Assembly: GCF_900105685.1 (NCBI RefSeq)
Contig: NZ_LT629781.1
Coordinates: 3,162,001-3,226,000 of the forward strand
Direction: 5' to 3'
Length of the DNA stretch: 64,000 bases
Source: Verrucomicrobium sp. GAS474
Lineage (GTDB): Bacteria > Verrucomicrobiota > Verrucomicrobiia > Methylacidiphilales > GAS474
Numbering within the stretch: position 1 is the stretch's first letter; every line of letters begins with the position of its first letter. The notes under the pieces were generated by a model. It saw nothing but the letters and a program-made list of their open reading frames with translations, ran no database searches and had not been told where the DNA came from. Below are positions 50,164 through 62,090 of the stretch, in pieces. The translations under genes were made by a program, and so were the position numbers.

Positions 50164-51306
50164 TCAGGAGAACAGAATCCGCGCGGAGGCCGTCCAGTCC
50201 GGCTTCCGCGCCCATTCCTTCCCTGCCGCGCCCATGCGGGCGCGCAGGGCCTCGTCGGAAATCAGCCGGGCCAGCACCTTCGAGAGCGCGGTGACGTCCC
50301 CCTCCTCGACGAGGAGGCCCGTCTCCCCGTCCTTCACCGCCTCGTCGACGCCGCCGGAGCGGTAGCCGACCACCGCCTTGCCGAGCGCGCCCGCCTCCAG
50401 GTAGGTCATCCCGAAGCCTTCGACGCTCCGCGCGAGGGAACGGCTGCTCATCACGTAGAGATCGCACCGGGCGAACGCGCCGGCCATCTCCCCTTCGGGA
50501 ATTTCCCCGAGGTAGGCGAAGGGGACGTTTCCCTCGCGGCAGACCCGCTGGATCTCCCGCAGGTAGGAGGGATCGCCCGCGCCGCCCACCTCGTAGACCA
50601 AGCCGCGCCGCACCTCCGAAGGAAGGAGCGCCAAGGCCCGCGCCGTGTCGATCTGCCCCTTGCGCGGATGGAGCCGCGCCAGCGTGAGGATGCGGAACGG
50701 ACGGATCTCCAGCGGAGCCCGGGGCGAGGCTGCCTCCTCCTGCAACAGGCGGTCCGCATCGATCCGGATCGCCTCCCGCAAGGCGCAGGGAGCGACGACG
50801 ACCTTCTGCCCCGAGGTCAACAGGCCGCTCTCCTCCACCAACCGGGCCGCGCAACGGGAGGACGAATAGACCGCCCGCCCCGCCAGCCACCGCCGGGCCG
50901 CGCGGAACATCCCCGGGCTGCGGCGATAGCGGAGCGCCTCCGATCCGTGAAAGACCGGCACCGCGTCGACCTCCCGCAACAGGCCGAACCGGTGAAAATA
51001 AAGAAACGCGAGATGGGCCCCGACGCTCCCGAGGAAGAGCCGCTTCCCCCGGAATTCGCGCCGACGCCACCACAGCGCCGCCATGAAGCGGGCCTGGTCC
51101 CAGAACCGGAGCGAGCCCCGCCCGCCGAGCCGCCGGACCGGCACCCCGCGCCGGTCCTCCGCGCTGACCGCGCCGGGAGCCCAGACCTCGACGGGAATCC
51201 CCGCGGCAAAGGCCGCGTTGGCGACTTCGGCGCAAAACGTCCCGGCCCCGCCCCGGAAAGGGGCGTACTCGTGGGTGATGACGATGGAAGGCCACGCTGG
51301 TTTCAT
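50164..51306 (-). CDS. Family 4 glycosyltransferase
   Basis: GT-B enzyme of 380 residues. The N-terminal half starts with IVITHEYAPFRGGAGTF (a glycine-rich acceptor/phosphate loop); the C-terminal half has RILTLARLHPRKGQ and the E-x7-E donor-site motif EGFGMTYLEAGALGKAVVG. No membrane segment. The acceptor is unknown; proximity to the GH57 gene could point to glucan, and proximity to the ACP-dehydratase gene to lipid glycosylation. It is divergent from that gene across 84 bases. Confidence 0.9.
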   Translation of the reverse strand: MKPAWPSIVITHEYAPFRGGAGTFCAEVANAAFAAGIPVEVWAPGAVSAEDRRGVPVRRLGGRGSLRFWDQARFMAALWWRRREFRGKRLFLGSVGAHLAFLYFHRFGLLREVDAVPVFHGSEALRYRRSPGMFRAARRWLAGRAVYSSSRCAARLVEESGLLTSGQKVVVAPCALREAIRIDADRLLQEEAASPRAPLEIRPFRILTLARLHPRKGQIDTARALALLPSEVRRGLVYEVGGAGDPSYLREIQRVCREGNVPFAYLGEIPEGEMAGAFARCDLYVMSSRSLARSVEGFGMTYLEAGALGKAVVGYRSGGVDEAVKDGETGLLVEEGDVTALSKVLARLISDEALRARMGAAGKEWARKPDWTASARILFS

Positions 51307-51390: not shown

Positions 51391-52287
51391 ATGCCGTTGG
51401 ATGAGAAACAAGTTGCCGACCTGAAACAAGCCTTAAGACGTTGCAGGCCCGAAGTTTTTGAGGCTGTCCTGAAGTTCCGCAACGAGAACGAGGTCTCCCT
51501 CGCCCCCATGATCGTCAAGGGGATCATCGAGCGATACCTCCCCGCCGAGTCGAAGATCTCCATCGCCGACACGACTCCCGAAACCCTTCTGGCCGAAGAC
51601 CTCGGCATCGACTCCCTGACGATGCTCGAGATCGTCCTCTCCATCGAGGAGGCCCTCGGCTTCCGCATCGAGGACAGCGAGCTGCGGAACATCCGCACCA
51701 TGGGCGACGTCACCACCTTCATCAACAAGAAGATCTCCGGCGAGCCGACCGAGACCGCCTCCTCCGCCGTCGTGAAGAAGTACGACCGCGACAAGATCGC
51801 CCTCATCGTCCCCCAGCAGCCCCCCTTCCTCTTCATCGACGAGGCGACCATCGAGGGCGACTCCCTCACCGCCTCCTACCTCCTGAAGGGCGACGAGCTC
51901 TTCTTTGACGGCCACTTCAAGGACAACCCCGTCGTCCCCGCCGCCATCGTCTTCGAGGCCCTCGGCCAGGCCTGCTGCCTCTGGGTCCTCGACGAGGGCG
52001 CCAAGCGGCTCGACCATCCCGTCGCCAGCAACGAGGTCGTCTTCGCCTCCCTCGACGGCGCCTCCTTCCACAAGCGCGCCAAGCCGGGCGATCGCCTCGA
52101 CTTCGAGGCGAAGCTCCTCCGCCTCCGCGCCCCCGTCGCCCTCTTCGAGGGCGTCGTGAAGGTGAACGGGGCCAAGGTCGCCAAGATCAACAAGCTCATC
52201 CTCGCCTTCGGCGACATCGAGAGCCTGGAAAAAGCGGCCGAGGCCGCCGACGCCGAAGAGGCCGCCGCCGTCCCTGCCGCCGCCTAG
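51391..52287 (+). CDS. Acyl carrier protein fused to a FabZ-like 3-hydroxyacyl-ACP dehydratase
   Basis: Fusion of 298 residues with GGAG four bases before the ATG. Residues about 35-117 are an ACP: the phosphopantetheine Ser is S75 in DLGIDSLTML. A linker leads to a hotdog dehydratase (about 133-275) with PFLFID and HFKDNPVVPAA; His H175 and Glu E189 sit 14 apart, as the catalytic pair does in FabZ. The C-terminus is Ala/Glu-rich. Such a fusion would dehydrate 3-hydroxyacyl chains carried on its own ACP. It heads a mini fatty-acid set with the ketosynthase and SDR genes, separated from them by a terminator-like hairpin. Confidence 0.92.
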   Translation: MPLDEKQVADLKQALRRCRPEVFEAVLKFRNENEVSLAPMIVKGIIERYLPAESKISIADTTPETLLAEDLGIDSLTMLEIVLSIEEALGFRIEDSELRNIRTMGDVTTFINKKISGEPTETASSAVVKKYDRDKIALIVPQQPPFLFIDEATIEGDSLTASYLLKGDELFFDGHFKDNPVVPAAIVFEALGQACCLWVLDEGAKRLDHPVASNEVVFASLDGASFHKRAKPGDRLDFEAKLLRLRAPVALFEGVVKVNGAKVAKINKLILAFGDIESLEKAAEAADAEEAAAVPAAA

Positions 52288-52306
52288 GACTCCGTCCCGC
52301 CTCCCC

Positions 52307-52351
52307 AAAGACCCCGATCGGATTTGCATCCCGATCCGGGTCTTTTTTTTT
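52307..52351 (+). terminator. Intrinsic terminator between the ACP-dehydratase and ketosynthase genes
   Basis: Long hairpin: arms start AAAGACCC (from 52307) and end GGGTCTTT (to 52345), with one bulge near the middle and a TTGC loop, followed by a run of T to 52351. It lies 20 bases after the stop. The ketosynthase start is only 34 bases further, so downstream genes need read-through or a very short promoter. Confidence 0.8.
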
Positions 52352-52385
52352 GCATCGCCGCCCCTTCCCTGTACATTCAGTGCCT

Positions 52386-53663
52386 ATGCGTCGCGTCGTC
52401 GTCACCGGTCTCGGCTTCATCACCAGCATCGGGAATTCCCAGGCCCAGGTGCTCGAAAGCCTGCGCGAAACCAAAACCGGCGTCGGCCTCTTCGACGAAT
52501 TCGCCGGGGCCGACGTCCCCGTGAAGCTCGGCGGCATCATCAAGGACTTCGCCTTCCCCACCACCGATCCCGAGGACTGGACGATCCCCCCGGAATACAA
52601 GCTCGGCCGCGCCCAGCTCCGCTCCATGGGGCCGAACGCCATCTTCGGCTTCGCCGCCGTCCAGCAGGCCATCGCCGCCGCGGGCCTCGGCCCCGAACTC
52701 GTCTCCCATCCCCGCACCGGCCTCCTCTGCTCCTCCGCCGGTTCGATGTGGCTGATGTACGACCACCTCAACGTCATGGTCACCCGCGGCATCCAGAAGT
52801 GCCAGCCCCTCGGCATGGTCGCCTCGATCCCCGGCACCCTGAACATCAACCTCGGCGCGCTCTACAAGATCAAGGGCTCCTGCTGGGGCATCATCAGCGC
52901 CTGCGCCTCCTCCGCCCACGGCCTCGGCAGCGCCACCGACCTCATCCGCATGGGCCGCCAGGACGTCATGTTCGTCGTCGGGGCCGAGGACAACTCGAAG
53001 TTCACCGGCCTCCCCTTCGCGGGCATCCGCGCCCTCAGCGCCGCCACCGATCCGAAGCTCAGCCCCTGCGCCTTCGACCGGAAGCGCGACGGCTTCGTTT
53101 TCACCGGCGGCGGGGCGACCCTCGTCCTCGAGGAACTCGAACACGCTAAGAAGCGGAGCGCGAACATCCTCGCCGAGGTCGTCGGCTGGGGCGAGTCGTC
53201 CGACGGCTACAACATCATGGCCCCCGACCCGAGCGGCGACGGCCTCGCCCGCGCCATGCGCAACGCCCTCGACGACGCGAAGCTCAACCCCGCCGACATC
53301 GACTACATCAACGCCCACGCCACCTCGACCCCGCCCGGCGACATCGCCGAGATCGGCGCGATCAAGGCCGTCTTCGGCGCCACCACCGAGGGGAAGAAAG
53401 TTCCCTACGTCAGCAGCACGAAGAGCCTCACCGGCCACGGCCTCTGCCTCGCCGGGGCGCAGGAGGCGGGCTTCACCGTCCTCTCCCTCCTGGAGGGCTT
53501 CACCCCCGTCTCGGCGAACATCACCGAACTCGACCCCGGCTGTGCCGGCGTCCCCGTCGTCGACAAGCCCGTCGACGCCGCCCCCCGCTACGCCATGAGC
53601 AACTCGAGCGGCTTCGGCGGGGCCAACGTCAGCCTCCTCTTCAAGAAGTGGGAAGGGAGCTAA
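52386..53663 (+). CDS. Beta-ketoacyl-ACP synthase (KAS I/II-like)
   Basis: Condensing enzyme of 425 residues starting MRRVVVTGLGFITSIG. The catalytic triad is Cys-His-His: C173 (SACASSAH), H311 (NAHATSTPPGD) and H351 (KSLTGHGLCLAGAQE), all present, so it should be an active elongating ketosynthase rather than a chain-length factor. SGFGGANVS near the C-terminus is typical. There is no good ribosome-binding site, and the start lies just after a terminator-like hairpin. SDR follows by four bases. Probably acts in a dedicated lipid or polyene pathway with the ACP-dehydratase fusion. Confidence 0.93.
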   Translation: MRRVVVTGLGFITSIGNSQAQVLESLRETKTGVGLFDEFAGADVPVKLGGIIKDFAFPTTDPEDWTIPPEYKLGRAQLRSMGPNAIFGFAAVQQAIAAAGLGPELVSHPRTGLLCSSAGSMWLMYDHLNVMVTRGIQKCQPLGMVASIPGTLNINLGALYKIKGSCWGIISACASSAHGLGSATDLIRMGRQDVMFVVGAEDNSKFTGLPFAGIRALSAATDPKLSPCAFDRKRDGFVFTGGGATLVLEELEHAKKRSANILAEVVGWGESSDGYNIMAPDPSGDGLARAMRNALDDAKLNPADIDYINAHATSTPPGDIAEIGAIKAVFGATTEGKKVPYVSSTKSLTGHGLCLAGAQEAGFTVLSLLEGFTPVSANITELDPGCAGVPVVDKPVDAAPRYAMSNSSGFGGANVSLLFKKWEGS

Positions 53664-53667
53664 CGTC

Positions 53668-54516
53668 ATGAGCACCCCCAAGAAAGTCTTTCTCACCGGG
53701 GCCAGCGCCGGGATCGGCCTCCTCACCGCCCGCACCCTGGCCGCCCGGGGCCACCACGTCTGGGGCACCGCCCGGAAGCTCGAGAACCTCCCGACCGATC
53801 TTCCGAACTTCCACCCCGTCGTCCTGAACCTGAACGATCGAGAAGGCATCGCCGCCGCCTTCCTCGCCGCCGAGGCCGAGGCGGGCGGCACTTTCGACGT
53901 GCTGATCAACAACGCGGGAAGCGGCACCTTCGGCCCCCTCGAAGGTTTCTCCGACGACGAGTTCAAGGCCCAGCTCGACCTCCTCCTCTTCGGCCCCCTC
54001 GACCTCGTCCGCGCCGCCCTCCCCGCCATGCGGGCCGCCAATCGCGGCCTCATCGTCAACGTCGCCTCCCTCGCCACCGAGTTCCCCCTCCCCTTCCTCG
54101 CCCCCTACAGCATGAGCAAGGCCGCCCTCAGCGCGATGACCGAGGGCCTCGGCATCGAGCTCGCCCACACCGGCATCCGCCTCGTCGACCTCCGCCCCGG
54201 CGACTTCAGGACAAAGTTCCACGACTCGACCCGCCGCATCGAGCTGTCCCCCGCCCTCGCCGCCGCCTACGCCCCGAACCTCGAAGCCGCCTGGAACGCC
54301 ATCGACAAGAACATGAACAACGCGCCCGACCCGCAACAGGTCGCCGACGCCTTGGTCAGCATCGTCGAAGGAAAGACCAAGCGCCCCGTCGTCGCCGTGG
54401 GAGACATCTTCCAAGCCCGCATCGCCCCCTTCCTCGTCCGCCTCGCCCATCGCGCATGGGTGCAGTGGGGACTCAGGCTCTACTACGGGCTGAAGACGGC
54501 GAAGAAGGCCGGTTAA
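53668..54516 (+). CDS. Short-chain dehydrogenase/reductase
   Basis: Classical SDR of 282 residues: cofactor loop TGASAGIG, NNAG, catalytic Ser in NVASL and YSMSK with Tyr/Lys. TARK after the second strand suggests NADP use. A C-terminal extension (about 235-282) of hydrophobic/Arg character may contact membranes. GGGAG lies eight bases before the start. Being directly after the ketosynthase, it is likely the 3-ketoacyl reductase of the set, although many SDRs act on other carbonyls. Confidence 0.9.
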   Translation: MSTPKKVFLTGASAGIGLLTARTLAARGHHVWGTARKLENLPTDLPNFHPVVLNLNDREGIAAAFLAAEAEAGGTFDVLINNAGSGTFGPLEGFSDDEFKAQLDLLLFGPLDLVRAALPAMRAANRGLIVNVASLATEFPLPFLAPYSMSKAALSAMTEGLGIELAHTGIRLVDLRPGDFRTKFHDSTRRIELSPALAAAYAPNLEAAWNAIDKNMNNAPDPQQVADALVSIVEGKTKRPVVAVGDIFQARIAPFLVRLAHRAWVQWGLRLYYGLKTAKKAG

Positions 54517-55004: not shown

Positions 55005-56246
55005 CTATTTTTGGCTGACCTCAATCTCGCGCACCACAGCAAACGCCTCCTCCGCGATCCGCACCGTCTCGGCAATATCGGCCTCGGTGTGGGCGGTGGA
55101 GAGGAACCAGTTGTGGTGGGGGTGGAAGAAGGCGCCCCTGGCGGTCACTTCGGCGCAGAAGCGTTGCTGGCGGCGGAAGTCGGCGTCGTCGGCGAAGGTG
55201 GGATAGGGGATGGCGGGGGGGCCGGAGGAGAGGATCGTGTAACCGTGCTTCGCCCCGGCGGCGGTGAGGCCGTCCATGAGGGCTTGGCCCCGGATCTTCA
55301 TGATCTCGACGCCGTTTTCCTTTTCCAGCAGCTGGAGGCAGGCGAGCGAGGCGGCCATGGGAGGCGGGCTGTTCCAGTAGCTGCCGGTGAGGAAGACCTT
55401 GCTGGCGGCGATCCGGAGGTCTTTCCGTCCGAGGGCGGCGGAGAGGGGGTGGCCGTTGGCGATGGCCTTGCAGAAGCAGATGAGATCGGGCTCGAAGCCG
55501 AAGTAGCGGTGGGAGCCGCCGTGGTGGAGGCGGAACCCGGCGCGGATGTCGTCGAGGATGATGACGATCCCTTCGCGGCGGCACGCTTCCTCGACGCCGC
55601 GCAGGAAGCCGTCGGCGGGGAGGATGGAGGGGGAAAAGGCGGGATGGTGGAAGGGGGTGAGGATGACCCCGGCGATCTCGCCCCGGAATTCCTTCAGCCG
55701 GGCCGTGAAGGCGTCGAGGTCGTTCCACGGGAAGGTGTGGATGTGGGCGGTGTCTTCCTCGATGACTCCGGCGTGGCCGGGGGTGCACCAGGGGGCGATG
55801 CCGTGGTAGGCCCCGGCGATCTTGAGGATCTTCTTCCGCTTGGTCTGCTCGCGGGCGACCTGGATGGCCCAGGTGGTCATGTCGGAGCCGTTCTTGCCGA
55901 AGACGGCCCAGGAAGCGAAGTCGACGCGGTCGACGAGGTACTCGGCCAGCTCGATCATGACGGGGCCGGGATGATTCACGCAGAGGGCCTCGCGGCGCTG
56001 GCGCTCGGCGGCTTCCTCGACGCCGGGGTGGCCGTGGCCGAGGACGATGGGGCCGTAGCCGCACATGTAATCGATGTATTCGTTCCCGTCGACGTCCCAA
56101 TAACGGGAGCCGGAGGCGCGGACGGCGTAGTAGGGGGAGCGGCCCGGGAGGACGGCGGCGGGGGTGGTGTGGCCGTAGATGCCGCCGGGGATGACGCGGG
56201 AGGCCCGCTCGAAGAGGGCGAGGGATTGGGAGAAGTCGCGGCCCAT
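55005..56246 (-). CDS. Class III PLP-dependent aminotransferase (GSA-aminomutase-like)
   Basis: Enzyme of 413 residues from the ATG at 56246; a GTG overlapping the previous gene is possible. PLP Lys is K260 in FCKAIANGHPLSA; the PLP-ring Asp is in ILDDIRAGFR (GSA-type consensus DE-x-x-TGFR, so slightly changed). The N-terminus PGGIYGHTTP and YIDYMCGYGPIVLGHGHP match the HemL-like group. No haem genes are nearby, so it is probably not hemL itself but a specialised aminotransferase, perhaps of the lipid cluster. It follows the SCP2-like gene by four bases. Confidence 0.9.
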   Translation of the reverse strand: MGRDFSQSLALFERASRVIPGGIYGHTTPAAVLPGRSPYYAVRASGSRYWDVDGNEYIDYMCGYGPIVLGHGHPGVEEAAERQRREALCVNHPGPVMIELAEYLVDRVDFASWAVFGKNGSDMTTWAIQVAREQTKRKKILKIAGAYHGIAPWCTPGHAGVIEEDTAHIHTFPWNDLDAFTARLKEFRGEIAGVILTPFHHPAFSPSILPADGFLRGVEEACRREGIVIILDDIRAGFRLHHGGSHRYFGFEPDLICFCKAIANGHPLSAALGRKDLRIAASKVFLTGSYWNSPPPMAASLACLQLLEKENGVEIMKIRGQALMDGLTAAGAKHGYTILSSGPPAIPYPTFADDADFRRQQRFCAEVTARGAFFHPHHNWFLSTAHTEADIAETVRIAEEAFAVVREIEVSQK

Positions 56247-56250
56247 AGAT

Positions 56251-57033
56251 TTATTCAAGGTAGTCACGGAGCCGTTCCATGACGAGGTTCAGGCCGTCGG
56301 CGAGCGGGACGAGGCCGTCGACGGTGATCTGCCCGAGGCCGACGGCGGCGTAGGTGTCGGCCTCGTCGCGGAGGGCGGCGTAGGCGACGTCGATGTCGGC
56401 GAAGGTGATCTGGACGTCGGGTCGGCGCGGGGGCTGGCTCCAGCCTGCGGTCCACGCGCCGGGACGGTTCTCGAACCAGACGGTCGCATCCGCCTCCCCG
56501 CCGATGGAAAAGGCGGCAAGGCCTTGGGGGATGCCCTTCAACGTCGCCTGGCCGAGGACGTCGTACTCGGCGAGGGGCCGGAGGCCGAGGCCCGCCGCGA
56601 TGAGGGTGAGGCGGGCATGGACGCGGCGGCCCTCGGCGGTGGCGAGGACATCGCCCTCCCCTTCGAGGACGGCCTCGAGCCGCTCGGCGACCTTGCTGAA
56701 TCCGGTCAAAAGGCCGATCCGCCATGCGCCCCAGACGGGGAGCGGAACGGCGGCGGCGTTCCCGGCGAAGAAGGCGTTCAGGTGGGCGGCGGAGAGGAAG
56801 AGGAGGGTGACGTCGGAACCGGGAAGGGCCTCCGGGACATGGGCGACGCTGCCGCCCCGGAAGGTGAGCGTCGCGGCGGGACCGTCGACGATGCGGAGGA
56901 CGATCCGGGCGTTCCACCGCGCGACGACCTCCCGCGCTGCGGCGTCCTGCGCGATGAGATCGACGAAGCAGGGGAGGACGGCGTGGAGATAGAGCCGGGC
57001 GTGGCCCTGGGAGTTGAGGGGGGCCGAACTCAT
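56251..57033 (-). CDS. SCP2-like (sterol-carrier-fold) protein
   Basis: Protein of 260 residues, no signal or membrane segment. The pattern of a hydrophobic, mixed alpha/beta sequence (ARIVLRIVDGPAATLTFRGG, SDVTLLFLSAAHLNAFFAG and a second half repeating the theme, ADATVWFENRPGAWTAGW) suggests one or two SCP2-type lipid-binding folds; this is a fold-level guess. The start overlaps the stop of the GT28 gene (ATGA), and GGAG lies eight bases upstream, so the two are translationally coupled. May hold or present the acyl substrate. Confidence 0.75.
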   Translation of the reverse strand: MSSAPLNSQGHARLYLHAVLPCFVDLIAQDAAAREVVARWNARIVLRIVDGPAATLTFRGGSVAHVPEALPGSDVTLLFLSAAHLNAFFAGNAAAVPLPVWGAWRIGLLTGFSKVAERLEAVLEGEGDVLATAEGRRVHARLTLIAAGLGLRPLAEYDVLGQATLKGIPQGLAAFSIGGEADATVWFENRPGAWTAGWSQPPRRPDVQITFADIDVAYAALRDEADTYAAVGLGQITVDGLVPLADGLNLVMERLRDYLE

Positions 57034-58172
57034 CGGAGGTTCTCCAGGGTTTGCAGGAGATCGACCGGGGTGACGCGGGGACGGACGGCCTCCATGCGGC
57101 TGAGGTAGCCCTGGCGGTGCTCGGGATGGTCGATCCAGTCGCGGAGGATCTCGGGCAGGTCGCCCGGCTTCGAGATCGAGACGGAGAGGCGGTGTTCCCG
57201 GCAGAAGCGCTCGGTGATCATCTCCTGCGGCATGATTCCGCCGAGGCGGTTGAAGAGGATCGGGCAGCCGCTCTGGATCGCCTCGTTCGTCGTCCCGGAC
57301 CCGGGCCGGGCGAGGATCGCCGAGGCGGAGCGCATCAGGAGGGCCATCTTGTCGGTCGTCGGCAGGGCGCGGACGACGATGCCCTGCCTTTCGAGGATCG
57401 GGGCCAGTTCCTCGATCCGCCAGCGGGTCGCATCGTTGCTGCCGCAGAGGGCGACGACCTGGAGGGGCCGCCCGATGCGGTGGAGGACGCGGAGGAAGCG
57501 CTCGTGGTTGTTCGCGCTGTTCGCCCCGGTGCTGAGGATGACGGTGAACTTGTCGGGATCGAGCTTCAGCGTCCCGTTCCAGAAGGCCTCGGTCTCCCGG
57601 TATTCGATCTCCGAATAGAAGCTGGGATGGAGGAGGAAGCCGCCCGCGAGGGTCTTCGCCTTCGGCATCCCGAGGTCGATCGCGGCGTCGACGGTCTCCG
57701 GCATCGAGCCGATGAAGAGGTCGGCGTCGGGATTGACCCAATGGCGGCTCATCCCGTAGCCGCCCCACATCTCGGCGCAGTAGGTGACGCACTTCACCTT
57801 GTCCCGCCCGAGGACGTGCCGGGCGATGTCGAAGAAGCCGTGGTTCGTCGAGCCGTGGACGCTGACGATGACGTCGGGCCGGAAGTTCTCCAGCACCTCC
57901 ACGTAGCGGCCCCGGCCGAGGATCCGGTGGCCGTGCTTGAACATCGCGGCGACCTCGAGGTAGTTGAAATAGACGTGATGGAGCTGGGGCCAGGTCCGCT
58001 GGATCGTGTTGTAGAGCTCGACGCCGAAACGATAGAGCCCGTGCGTCGATTCGAGGGCCGAATGGACGTCGATCTTCCACTGGGGCCGCTCCTTCGCCGT
58101 CCATTGGGCGAGGGATCGCGCCCGCATATTGTGTCCCCCCCCGGTCGAGGAGGTTAGAACCATGATTCGCAT
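57030..58172 (-). CDS. GT28-type glycosyltransferase, MGDG-synthase-like
   Basis: GT-B enzyme of 380 residues from the ATG at 58172; ATG at 58163 is also possible. The N-terminal MGDG-synthase motif STGGGHNMRARSL is followed by a C-terminal UDP-sugar site ARPGSGTTNEAIQSGCPILF. Relatives glycosylate diacylglycerol (galactosyl- or glucosyl-diacylglycerol) at the membrane. There is no membrane helix, fitting a peripheral enzyme. It lies between the HTTM-like and SCP2-like genes, so a lipid acceptor is likely. Confidence 0.9.
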   Translation of the reverse strand: MRIMVLTSSTGGGHNMRARSLAQWTAKERPQWKIDVHSALESTHGLYRFGVELYNTIQRTWPQLHHVYFNYLEVAAMFKHGHRILGRGRYVEVLENFRPDVIVSVHGSTNHGFFDIARHVLGRDKVKCVTYCAEMWGGYGMSRHWVNPDADLFIGSMPETVDAAIDLGMPKAKTLAGGFLLHPSFYSEIEYRETEAFWNGTLKLDPDKFTVILSTGANSANNHERFLRVLHRIGRPLQVVALCGSNDATRWRIEELAPILERQGIVVRALPTTDKMALLMRSASAILARPGSGTTNEAIQSGCPILFNRLGGIMPQEMITERFCREHRLSVSISKPGDLPEILRDWIDHPEHRQGYLSRMEAVRPRVTPVDLLQTLENLR

Positions 58173-58214
58173 CGCTAAAACTTGGGCCAAGATTGTACGG
58201 GCCGCCGTTCGAGG

Positions 58215-59756: not shown

Positions 59757-60845
59757 ATGGCACGGATTCTTTACGGCGTGATGGGCAACACCCACGGCCA
59801 CCTCATGCGGACGCTCTCCCTCGTCAACCGGATGCCGGAGCATGAATTCATCTTCGTCGGCGGCGGCAAGGTCGCCCTCGCCATGGCCGCGATGAAGAAG
59901 TGGAAGTGCCTCGATGTCCCCGTCCTCCGCACCGTCCACCGGAAGCAGCGGGTCTCCGTTCCCCTGACGATCGGCCAGATCATCCGCTGCCACCTCGCGA
60001 TGCCCCGCGTCGTCGACAAGATCCAGGGCCTCGTCGAGAAGTGGCAGCCCGACGTCGCCATCGTCGACCGGGAGTTCTTTCTTCCCCTCGCCGCGCAGAA
60101 GATGAACCTCGCCTGCTTCTCCGTCGACCACTCCCACGTGATGAAGGCGTGCACCTATCCGGTCCCCGATTCGCAGAAGCTCTCCTGGCGGCTGGCGATG
60201 GCGAACGACTATCTCTTCTTCGACCGGACGAAGCACAACCTCAGCGTCTCCTTCTTCCACCCCCCGATGAAGCCGGCGCGGAAATACGTCGTCGACGAGC
60301 TCTTCCCCGCCGTCGTCCGCGACGTCGTGAAGACCCGCACCCCCTCGGCCGGGGACCACATCTTCGTCTACCAGACCAGCCCCACCTTCCACCGCCTCAT
60401 CGCCACGCTGAAGGAACTGAAGCGCCCCGTCATCGTCTACGGCTTCCACAACGAGGACCGCGTCGAGGGGAACGTCACCTTCCGCGCCTACCATCCCGAG
60501 CGGATCCTCGACGACCTCGCCTCCAGCGCCTACGCCGTGGTGAACGGCGGCCACAACCTCCTCTCCGAGGCCTTCTACTACGGGAAACCGACCCTTTGCT
60601 TCCCCGTCCACACCCTGTTCGAGCAGTTCATCAACGCCTGGCACGTGAAGGAAATGGGCTTCGGCGACTACTCGACGACGCTGGAGCCGACCCCCGCCCT
60701 CTTCTCCGCCTTCGAGGCGAAGCTCGCCGAATACAGCGCGAACGTGACCGCGAAGTTCCGCGAGGGGACCGACGAACTCGTCGCCCGGATGCGCCACCTC
60801 ATCGCGAACCCCCGCGAGATCGCCCCGATCAATCCCGGCGAATAG
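59757..60845 (+). CDS. Glycosyltransferase, MJ1255/VC2487-like GT-B family
   Basis: Protein of 362 residues starting MARILYGVMGNTHGHLMRTLSL, the N-terminal loop pattern of MJ1255-type glycosyltransferases. The C-terminal donor site is VNGGHNLLSEAFYYGKPTLCFPV with the Glu of an E-x-x-x-GKP motif. No membrane segment. The second glycosyltransferase of the cluster; the next starts ten bases after its stop. Confidence 0.87.
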   Translation: MARILYGVMGNTHGHLMRTLSLVNRMPEHEFIFVGGGKVALAMAAMKKWKCLDVPVLRTVHRKQRVSVPLTIGQIIRCHLAMPRVVDKIQGLVEKWQPDVAIVDREFFLPLAAQKMNLACFSVDHSHVMKACTYPVPDSQKLSWRLAMANDYLFFDRTKHNLSVSFFHPPMKPARKYVVDELFPAVVRDVVKTRTPSAGDHIFVYQTSPTFHRLIATLKELKRPVIVYGFHNEDRVEGNVTFRAYHPERILDDLASSAYAVVNGGHNLLSEAFYYGKPTLCFPVHTLFEQFINAWHVKEMGFGDYSTTLEPTPALFSAFEAKLAEYSANVTAKFREGTDELVARMRHLIANPREIAPINPGE

Positions 60846-60854
60846 GAAGAGCCG

Positions 60855-62090
60855 GTGAAAGTCGCCTACCTCTTCATCACCTTCCCCGTCGCCTCCCAGA
60901 CCTTCCTCCAGCGGGAGATCCGGGGCGTCGCGGCGAGCGGGATCGAGGTCCACGTCCATTCCATGTGGACCCCTTCCGGCGTCCCCGCGTGGGAACCGGT
61001 CCCCGGCGTCACCCTCCACACCCACCGCCCGGGCGAGCTTTTCTCCCGGCCCGACCTCTTCCTCGTCGAGGCCGTGCGGCAGCTCGCCCACCTTCCCGCC
61101 GGTCTCGCCCACCTCCTCTCCCGCCCTCCCCGCTCCGGCGACGAGTTCAACCACGCCTTCCTCGGCCTCCTCTTCGCCCTGCGGCATGCCGCCGCCTTCC
61201 GCCTCGCCGGGTACGATCTGATCCACGGCGCCTGGGCCACCGCTCCCGCCACCGCCGCCGCGATCCTCGGAGCCTTCTGCGGCTTCCCCTTCAGCTTCGG
61301 TGCCCACGCCTACGACATCCACCGGCGTGGAGGCGACCGATTCCTCGATGCCAAGCTGAAACGGGCCGCCCTCGTCCATACGACGACGCAGATGAATGTC
61401 GATTACCTCTCCGGTCGCGTTCCCGAGGCGCGGGAGAAAATCGTCCTCTCCCGGCGCGGCCTCACCACGCTGCCCCCGCTGGATGAGATCGCCGCCCGTC
61501 CCCCGATCCCCGCCGCCGGCCCCGTCCGCATCGTCTCCGTCGGCCGCCTCGTCCCGAAGAAAGGGCAGGCCAGCCAGATCGAGGCGATCGCCCTGCTGCG
61601 CAAGGCGGGCATCGCCGCGACGCTCCGCATCGTCGGGGACGGCCCCCTTCAGGCCGAGCTTGCCGCCCGCGCCGAGGCCCTCGGCGTCGCCGACGCGGTG
61701 ACCCTCACCGGCCATCTTTCCGAGGCCGCCGTCCGCGAGGAATACCGCCGCGCCGACCTCTTCTGCCACTCCGGCATCATCGACAGCGAGGGCGACCGCG
61801 ACGGCCTCCCCAACGTCATCCCCGAGGCGATGGCCTGCGGCCTCCCCGTCGTCTCCAGCGACGCGGCGGGGACGACCGAGGCGATCCATGACGGGAAGAC
61901 CGGCCTCATCGCTCCCGGCGGCAAGCCCGAGGCCATCGCCGCCGCCGTGCGGAAGCTGGCGGGCAACGACGCCCTCTGCGCCACGATCCGCGCCGAGGCC
62001 CGCGCCTGGGTCGAGGAAAACTTCCTCGTCTCCAAAAACGCCGCGAAGCTCGCCGAGGCCTTCCGCCGGGTTACCTCTTCTCGCCCGTAG
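60855..62090 (+). CDS. Family 4 glycosyltransferase
   Basis: Protein of 411 residues starting at a GTG with AGGA upstream. The N-terminal fold has FPVASQTFLQREI, GAHAYDIH and HTTTQMN; the C-terminal half has IVSVGRLVPKKGQ and DGLPNVIPEAMACGLPVVSSDAAGTTE (donor-site motif). FPVASQTF and the E-G-x-P-N-V pattern are typical of exopolysaccharide/glycolipid WcaL-like transferases. Its end overlaps the convergent gene by 20 bases. Confidence 0.92.
   Translation: MKVAYLFITFPVASQTFLQREIRGVAASGIEVHVHSMWTPSGVPAWEPVPGVTLHTHRPGELFSRPDLFLVEAVRQLAHLPAGLAHLLSRPPRSGDEFNHAFLGLLFALRHAAAFRLAGYDLIHGAWATAPATAAAILGAFCGFPFSFGAHAYDIHRRGGDRFLDAKLKRAALVHTTTQMNVDYLSGRVPEAREKIVLSRRGLTTLPPLDEIAARPPIPAAGPVRIVSVGRLVPKKGQASQIEAIALLRKAGIAATLRIVGDGPLQAELAARAEALGVADAVTLTGHLSEAAVREEYRRADLFCHSGIIDSEGDRDGLPNVIPEAMACGLPVVSSDAAGTTEAIHDGKTGLIAPGGKPEAIAAAVRKLAGNDALCATIRAEARAWVEENFLVSKNAAKLAEAFRRVTSSRP

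Follow-up and report, generated by a model that had tools for sequence, protein, structure and literature searches.

What might a bacterium build with a chain-extending set that looks incomplete? This question is raised by three genes of Verrucomicrobium sp. GAS474 within the window analysed here, a stretch of 64,000 nucleotides of contig NZ_LT629781.1 (positions 3,162,001 to 3,226,000). An earlier note, made from the letters alone, had described an ACP-dehydratase fusion next to a ketosynthase (KS) and an SDR, with neither a malonyl transferase nor an enoyl reductase (ER), and proposed that the set could yield unsaturated or polyene chains. Our analysis points to a different product: the locus probably encodes a type II module dedicated to building the acyl chain of a sphingoid base, a chain that would be handed to an enzyme of the serine palmitoyltransferase (SPT) type.

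An ACP-dehydratase fusion beside a ketosynthase and an SDR

All three ORFs are present between positions 51391 and 54516 (Table 1), and the first does hold an ACP and a FabZ-like dehydratase (DH) in a single chain: PF00550 matches residues 55-111 (E 1.8e-7) and PF07977 residues 141-266 (E 1.7e-16). In the AlphaFold2 model of the fusion (pLDDT 91), an ACP with an N-terminal extension is joined through a short linker (pLDDT 67) to a domain with the hot-dog fold of FabZ, and this DH domain matched FabZ with a TM of about 0.9 in a PDB fold search. The N-terminal extension, with helices at residues 5-14, 20-32 and 35-48 in the model, is kept in an alignment of 11 orthologues; a second alignment of the fusion comprised 50. 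Among homologous ORFs, some of them duplicates of one genome, the phosphopantetheine Ser75 of the DSL motif is present in 75 of 76, the DH residues His175 (51913-51915) and Glu189 (51955-51957), spaced 14 apart as in FabZ, are conserved in nearly all of the 76, the KS residues C173, H311, K346 and H351 in essentially all 72, and the SDR residues S134, Y147 and K151 in 50 of 51. The full Cys-His-His triad claimed for the KS is therefore confirmed, together with its Lys.

The earlier note had named an assembly artefact as one explanation of the fusion. Full-length ACP-DH homologues are present in 45 of 388 Verrucomicrobiota genomes, and congeners at 84% and 73% identity also carry the fusion; since it recurs in close and distant relatives alike, we reject an artefact. 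In three genomes (G180, G280 and G343) ACP and DH occupy two neighbouring ORFs, which points to a fusion or fission event within the family unless a frameshift accounts for the split. Some Opitutales genomes (G195, G068, G143, G399, G322 and others) also encode the N-terminally extended ACP in additional free-standing copies away from the locus. In genus g15 of family f8 (L053:9624-10115 and L054-L057) the DH domain has a free-standing homologue of about 50% identity; its neighbours are a DegP-like protease and a type III pantothenate kinase, and the SPT clade, the KS and the ACP are all absent.

The KS is about equally near the FabB and FabF models of NCBIfam and falls below both equivalog cut-offs; in a structure search FabB structures gave the top scores. 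For the SDR the best NCBIfam model was NF049977 (KdsR, 3-ketosphinganine reductase), at 160 bits against a cut-off of 400 and well above the FabG models, and a PDB search returned generic SDRs only. Being absent from 16 of 53 neighbourhoods, the SDR may not take part in the elongation cycle. This absence and the KdsR-like score fit better with reduction of a 3-keto base, a step in which another reductase could replace it, than with a fixed elongation role. KS and SDR are separated by 4 nt and a strong hairpin lies between ACP-DH and KS, so that the three genes may form two transcription units.

Table 1. Features of the locus and its surroundings, in positions of the window.
Feature	Position	Strand	Description
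GT4-family glycosyltransferase	50164..51306	-	PF00534/PF13692; divergent, kept upstream of ACP-DH across Opitutales
ACP-DH fusion	51391..52287	+	298 aa; PF00550 and PF07977
N-terminal helical extension of ACP	51391..51540	+	residues 1-50; two helices before ACP helix I
ACP domain	51553..51723	+	residues 55-111; PF00550; phosphopantetheine Ser75 at 51613-51615
FabZ-like hot-dog dehydratase domain	51781..52215	+	residues about 131-275; PF07977; PDB fold match to FabZ
Terminator-like hairpin and T-run between ACP-DH and KS	52307..52345	+	dG -21.4 kcal/mol; z -6.2 vs shuffles; pattern scan match
Ketosynthase, KAS I/II type	52386..53663	+	425 aa; PF00109 and PF02801; C173-H311-H351 plus K346
SDR, 3-ketodihydrosphingosine-reductase-like	53668..54516	+	282 aa; PF00106
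Class-III aminotransferase, glutamate-1-semialdehyde aminomutase-like	55005..56246	-	PF00202; window-type loci only
MGDG/diglucosyl-DAG-synthase-like glycosyltransferase	57030..58190	-	PF04101; NF010134/NF010135 weak
Glycosyltransferase	59781..60845	+	PF13528; synteny in L167 and L089
Glycosyltransferase	60855..62090	+	synteny; between MGDG-like glycosyltransferase and SPT in Opitutales

Housekeeping fatty-acid genes lie elsewhere in the genome

FabD, FabG, AcpP and FabF are grouped elsewhere in the same genome, all above their NCBIfam cut-offs, and an LpxC-FabZ fusion and a FabV enoyl reductase (at 1500836) are also present. The enzymes of the window miss the housekeeping equivalog cut-offs (DH 76 bits against 113 for FabZ, KS 350 against 494 for FabF, ACP 49 against 71). 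On these grounds we reject housekeeping fatty-acid synthesis as the role of the set, a possibility that the earlier note had tied to a lack of other fab genes. The set of carrier, dehydration, condensation and possibly reduction functions is thus real and non-housekeeping. No enoyl reductase is encoded at the locus; the FabK model gave a weak match only, and no FabI was recognised by eye among the SDR matches inspected. With FabD and FabV available in trans, the lack of a malonyl transferase and an enoyl reductase at the locus is answered, much as the earlier note had supposed when it looked to standard genes elsewhere. The whole genome has only three PF00550 ACPs and therefore the fusion is its only SPT-linked carrier.

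A second specialised set, of aryl-polyene-like content, lies in the same genome (G000:C1 about 1971.8-1977.0 kb; L058:9266-14468) and comprises an ApeI/FabZ-like dehydratase, a lipid A-type acyltransferase, an FAD-dependent halogenase-like protein, an ACP, an unassigned protein and a KS. This separate KS/ACP/ApeI-like cluster at 1972-1977 kb fits the polyene or aryl polyene type better, and we rejected that assignment for the window set.

The module is co-inherited with an SPT-type alpha-oxoamine synthase

At 3227675-3228868, 1.7 kb past the end of the window and 13 kb from the fusion, the genome encodes an alpha-oxoamine synthase (AOS), on the other strand from ACP-DH and not in one operon with it. 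Its best PDB match is the SPT of S. multivorum (298 bits; best non-SPT 246). In a phylogenetic tree it groups with SPTs of Bacteroidota and AcpR-linked SPTs of proteobacteria, references identified by homology and gene context and not by assay, and is split from BioF/KBL/ALAS with support of 100/99; the Verrucomicrobiota enzymes form a well-supported clade of their own. The PLP Lys, the Asp and both AOS His are invariant in all 28 SPT ORFs. Like KS, DH and SDR it scores below the curated equivalog cut-offs (NF047600, 379 bits against 640; NF047599, 347 against 500), and we therefore name it SPT-type and not SPT. By sequence it is an SPT-type alpha-oxoamine synthase, with a putative activity in condensing serine with a long-chain acyl thioester. 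One MAG has its SPT-type ORF in two pieces (L050, G029:C216:10685-11865), either through a frameshift error or through decay.

Delimiting the SPT clade by score (at least 569 bits, the next match scoring 427), we found both SPT and ACP-DH in 44 of the 388 Verrucomicrobiota genomes (43 fused and 1 split), SPT only in 1, ACP-DH only in 4 and neither in 339, giving a Fisher p of about 4e-52 with genomes counted as independent and thus uncorrected for relatedness. The five genomes that break the pattern are G209, G215, G171, G180 and G280. Where the two genes share a contig they are at most 25 kb apart in 24 of 28 genomes, and of 18 genomes whose fetched flanking sequence lacked SPT, 16 carry one elsewhere (G447 and G451 have none). 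Inside the order to which the window belongs, presence and absence of the two genes agree within families f2 (G029 versus six others), f8 (G009 versus g11 and g15) and f9 (G028 and G048 versus ten others), and the KS tracks the same genomes.

Proposed role and the question of unsaturation

Two precedents make a dedicated module that feeds acyl-ACP to SPT a natural idea. The SPTs of Rhodobacteria work preferentially with a specialised acyl-ACP (PMC9386255), and P. fluorescens produces very-long-chain sphinganines by means of a PKS together with an SPT and a KDSR-like SDR (PMC12134224). In the pathway that we propose, the fused ACP would carry the growing chain, which the KS would lengthen with malonyl units from housekeeping FabD. 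Ketoreduction would fall to housekeeping FabG or to the local SDR, dehydration to the tethered FabZ-type domain and enoyl reduction to housekeeping FabV. The finished acyl-ACP would then pass to the linked SPT-type enzyme, which would condense the chain with an amino acid, of which serine is the likeliest, into a 3-keto base. Where present, the SDR would reduce the 3-ketone of this base, and the neighbouring lipid-type glycosyltransferases, which suggest a glycosylated product, would decorate the lipid.

It is this tie to an SPT-type enzyme and to lipid-type glycosyltransferases that argues for a sphingoid base as the product and against a free polyene. Of the product first suggested for the set, the free polyene thus falls away, and unsaturation survives only as a possible trans-2-enoyl chain passed to the SPT-type enzyme. 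In such a variant, which we consider unlikely, no enoyl reduction would occur on the fused ACP; the tethered DH would leave a trans-2-enoyl (or isomerised) chain, and its condensation by SPT would give a 4-ene, sphingosine-type base with no desaturase. The tethering of a DH with fully conserved active-site residues to the carrier, the lack of a local ER, and a KS about as near to FabB as to FabF with FabB structures scoring best, are consistent with it. The housekeeping FabV argues the other way, and the very-long chains from AcpXL/FabZXL/FabFXL sets are saturated. These comparable sets also make their chains with no local ER (PMC11901934).

Gene neighbourhood in relatives

The earlier note had proposed to look for the same gene order in related genomes, and a shared cluster with GT4, KS, SDR, glycosyltransferases and SPT was indeed found, above all in Opitutales. 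The usual order there is a GT4 gene on the minus strand, then ACP-DH, KS, SDR, the MGDG-synthase-like glycosyltransferase and two further glycosyltransferases, and lastly SPT on the minus strand. Some of the gene calls in relatives come from a simple gene caller of our own and are approximate. The MGDG-like enzyme is the most constant neighbour (50 of 53 loci with enough flank). Between the SDR and this gene the window holds, at 55005-57033, the aminotransferase and a 260-aa protein with no Pfam match, a pair seen only in window-type loci (L167 and L089, with aminotransferase identities of 71% and 63%); the two proteins could modify the base or the sugar. One locus of this Verrucomicrobiota type, L088 (CAJCIA010000088.1), is titled Betaproteobacteria and yet matches G028, a genome of the window's order, so that its title looks wrong.

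The constancy of the MGDG-like and GT4 glycosyltransferases, together with the 13 kb between SPT and fusion in the window genome, would also suit a set that makes the N-acyl or another acyl chain of a glycolipid, the SPT being a neighbour in the same lipid pathway. We give this a small probability only: SPT stands directly upstream of ACP-DH in L048, L052, G048 and G029, in G048 these two adjoin while the KS is on a different contig, and the AcpR precedent is of a dedicated ACP that feeds SPT itself (PMC9386255).

A sphingoid base thus remains our preferred product. A specialised FabA/FabB-like route to unsaturated fatty acids for ordinary phospholipids, with an incidental SPT linkage, could draw on the FabB-like KS scores, the FabZ-type DH and the fact that some FabZ relatives isomerise, but is very improbable given the nearly perfect SPT co-occurrence, the absence of the set from most Verrucomicrobiota although they need membrane fatty acids, and a DH with the FabZ-type Glu and not the FabA-type Asp.

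Comparison with known systems

Bacteroidota SPT/KdsR resembles our system in its SPT-side alpha-oxoamine synthase and KdsR-like SDR; to our knowledge no dedicated ACP, KS or DH has been described there. The AcpR/AasR-fed SPT of Rhodobacteria (CC_1162, CC_1163, CC_1165; PMC9386255) shares with the window a specialised ACP that is co-inherited with SPT and, in our case presumptively, supplies its acyl substrate. In Rhodobacteria, however, an acyl-ACP synthetase loads a preformed fatty acid onto a stand-alone AcpR encoded beside spt, whereas in the window the ACP is fused to a DH and joined by a KS, which implies synthesis or elongation rather than loading. The canonical AcpR-spt layout was found in a Klebsiella plasmid.

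SgaABC of Pseudomonas fluorescens MYb115 (PMC12134224) likewise unites in a single cluster a dedicated capacity for polyketide-type chain building, an SPT and an SDR of the KDSR kind. SgaA, which stands beside the AOS, is a single protein, an iterative multidomain type I PKS, whereas the window has separate type II-like proteins, of which only ACP and DH are fused, plus glycosyltransferases. The Rhizobiales cluster acpXL-fabZXL-fabF2XL-fabF1XL-adh-lpxXL (PMC11901934) also combines a dedicated ACP with a FabZ-type dehydratase, with KS and with a dehydrogenase, neither MAT nor ER being encoded locally, and the A. fabrum ACP-fabZ and fabF lie in two transcription units (PMC11901934), like the possible split at the locus studied here. 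It differs in feeding a lipid A acyltransferase (LpxXL), in its two KSs and in its separate ACP and FabZ; the window has one KS and no acyltransferase recognised at the locus, and no specific sequence kinship between the two systems emerged. On the best reading of these analogies the module would work like AcpXL/FabZXL/FabFXL or SgaA, as a member of neither.

In the known sphingolipid pathways of bacteria the acyl chain either comes preformed, through AcpR/AasR or as acyl-CoA, or is made by one type I PKS. If our reading is correct, Opitutales and the window's order would have a third means of feeding SPT, a type II module that is co-inherited and in part fused. Our literature search on sphingolipids of Opitutales, Methylacidiphilales and Verrucomicrobiota and on ACP-dehydratase fusions, which covered mainly journals outside subscription, returned no account of the locus; for this phylum it returned only a report of Spt-like genes, in 22 Verrucomicrobiota Black Sea MAGs (PMC11334938), and it is here that distinctive sphingoid bases would be predicted. 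Should the 4-ene variant be true, these bacteria would obtain sphingosine-type bases straight from chain assembly and would need no desaturase. The combination of ACP-DH, KS and SPT offers a gene marker for choosing cultured Opitutaceae to examine.
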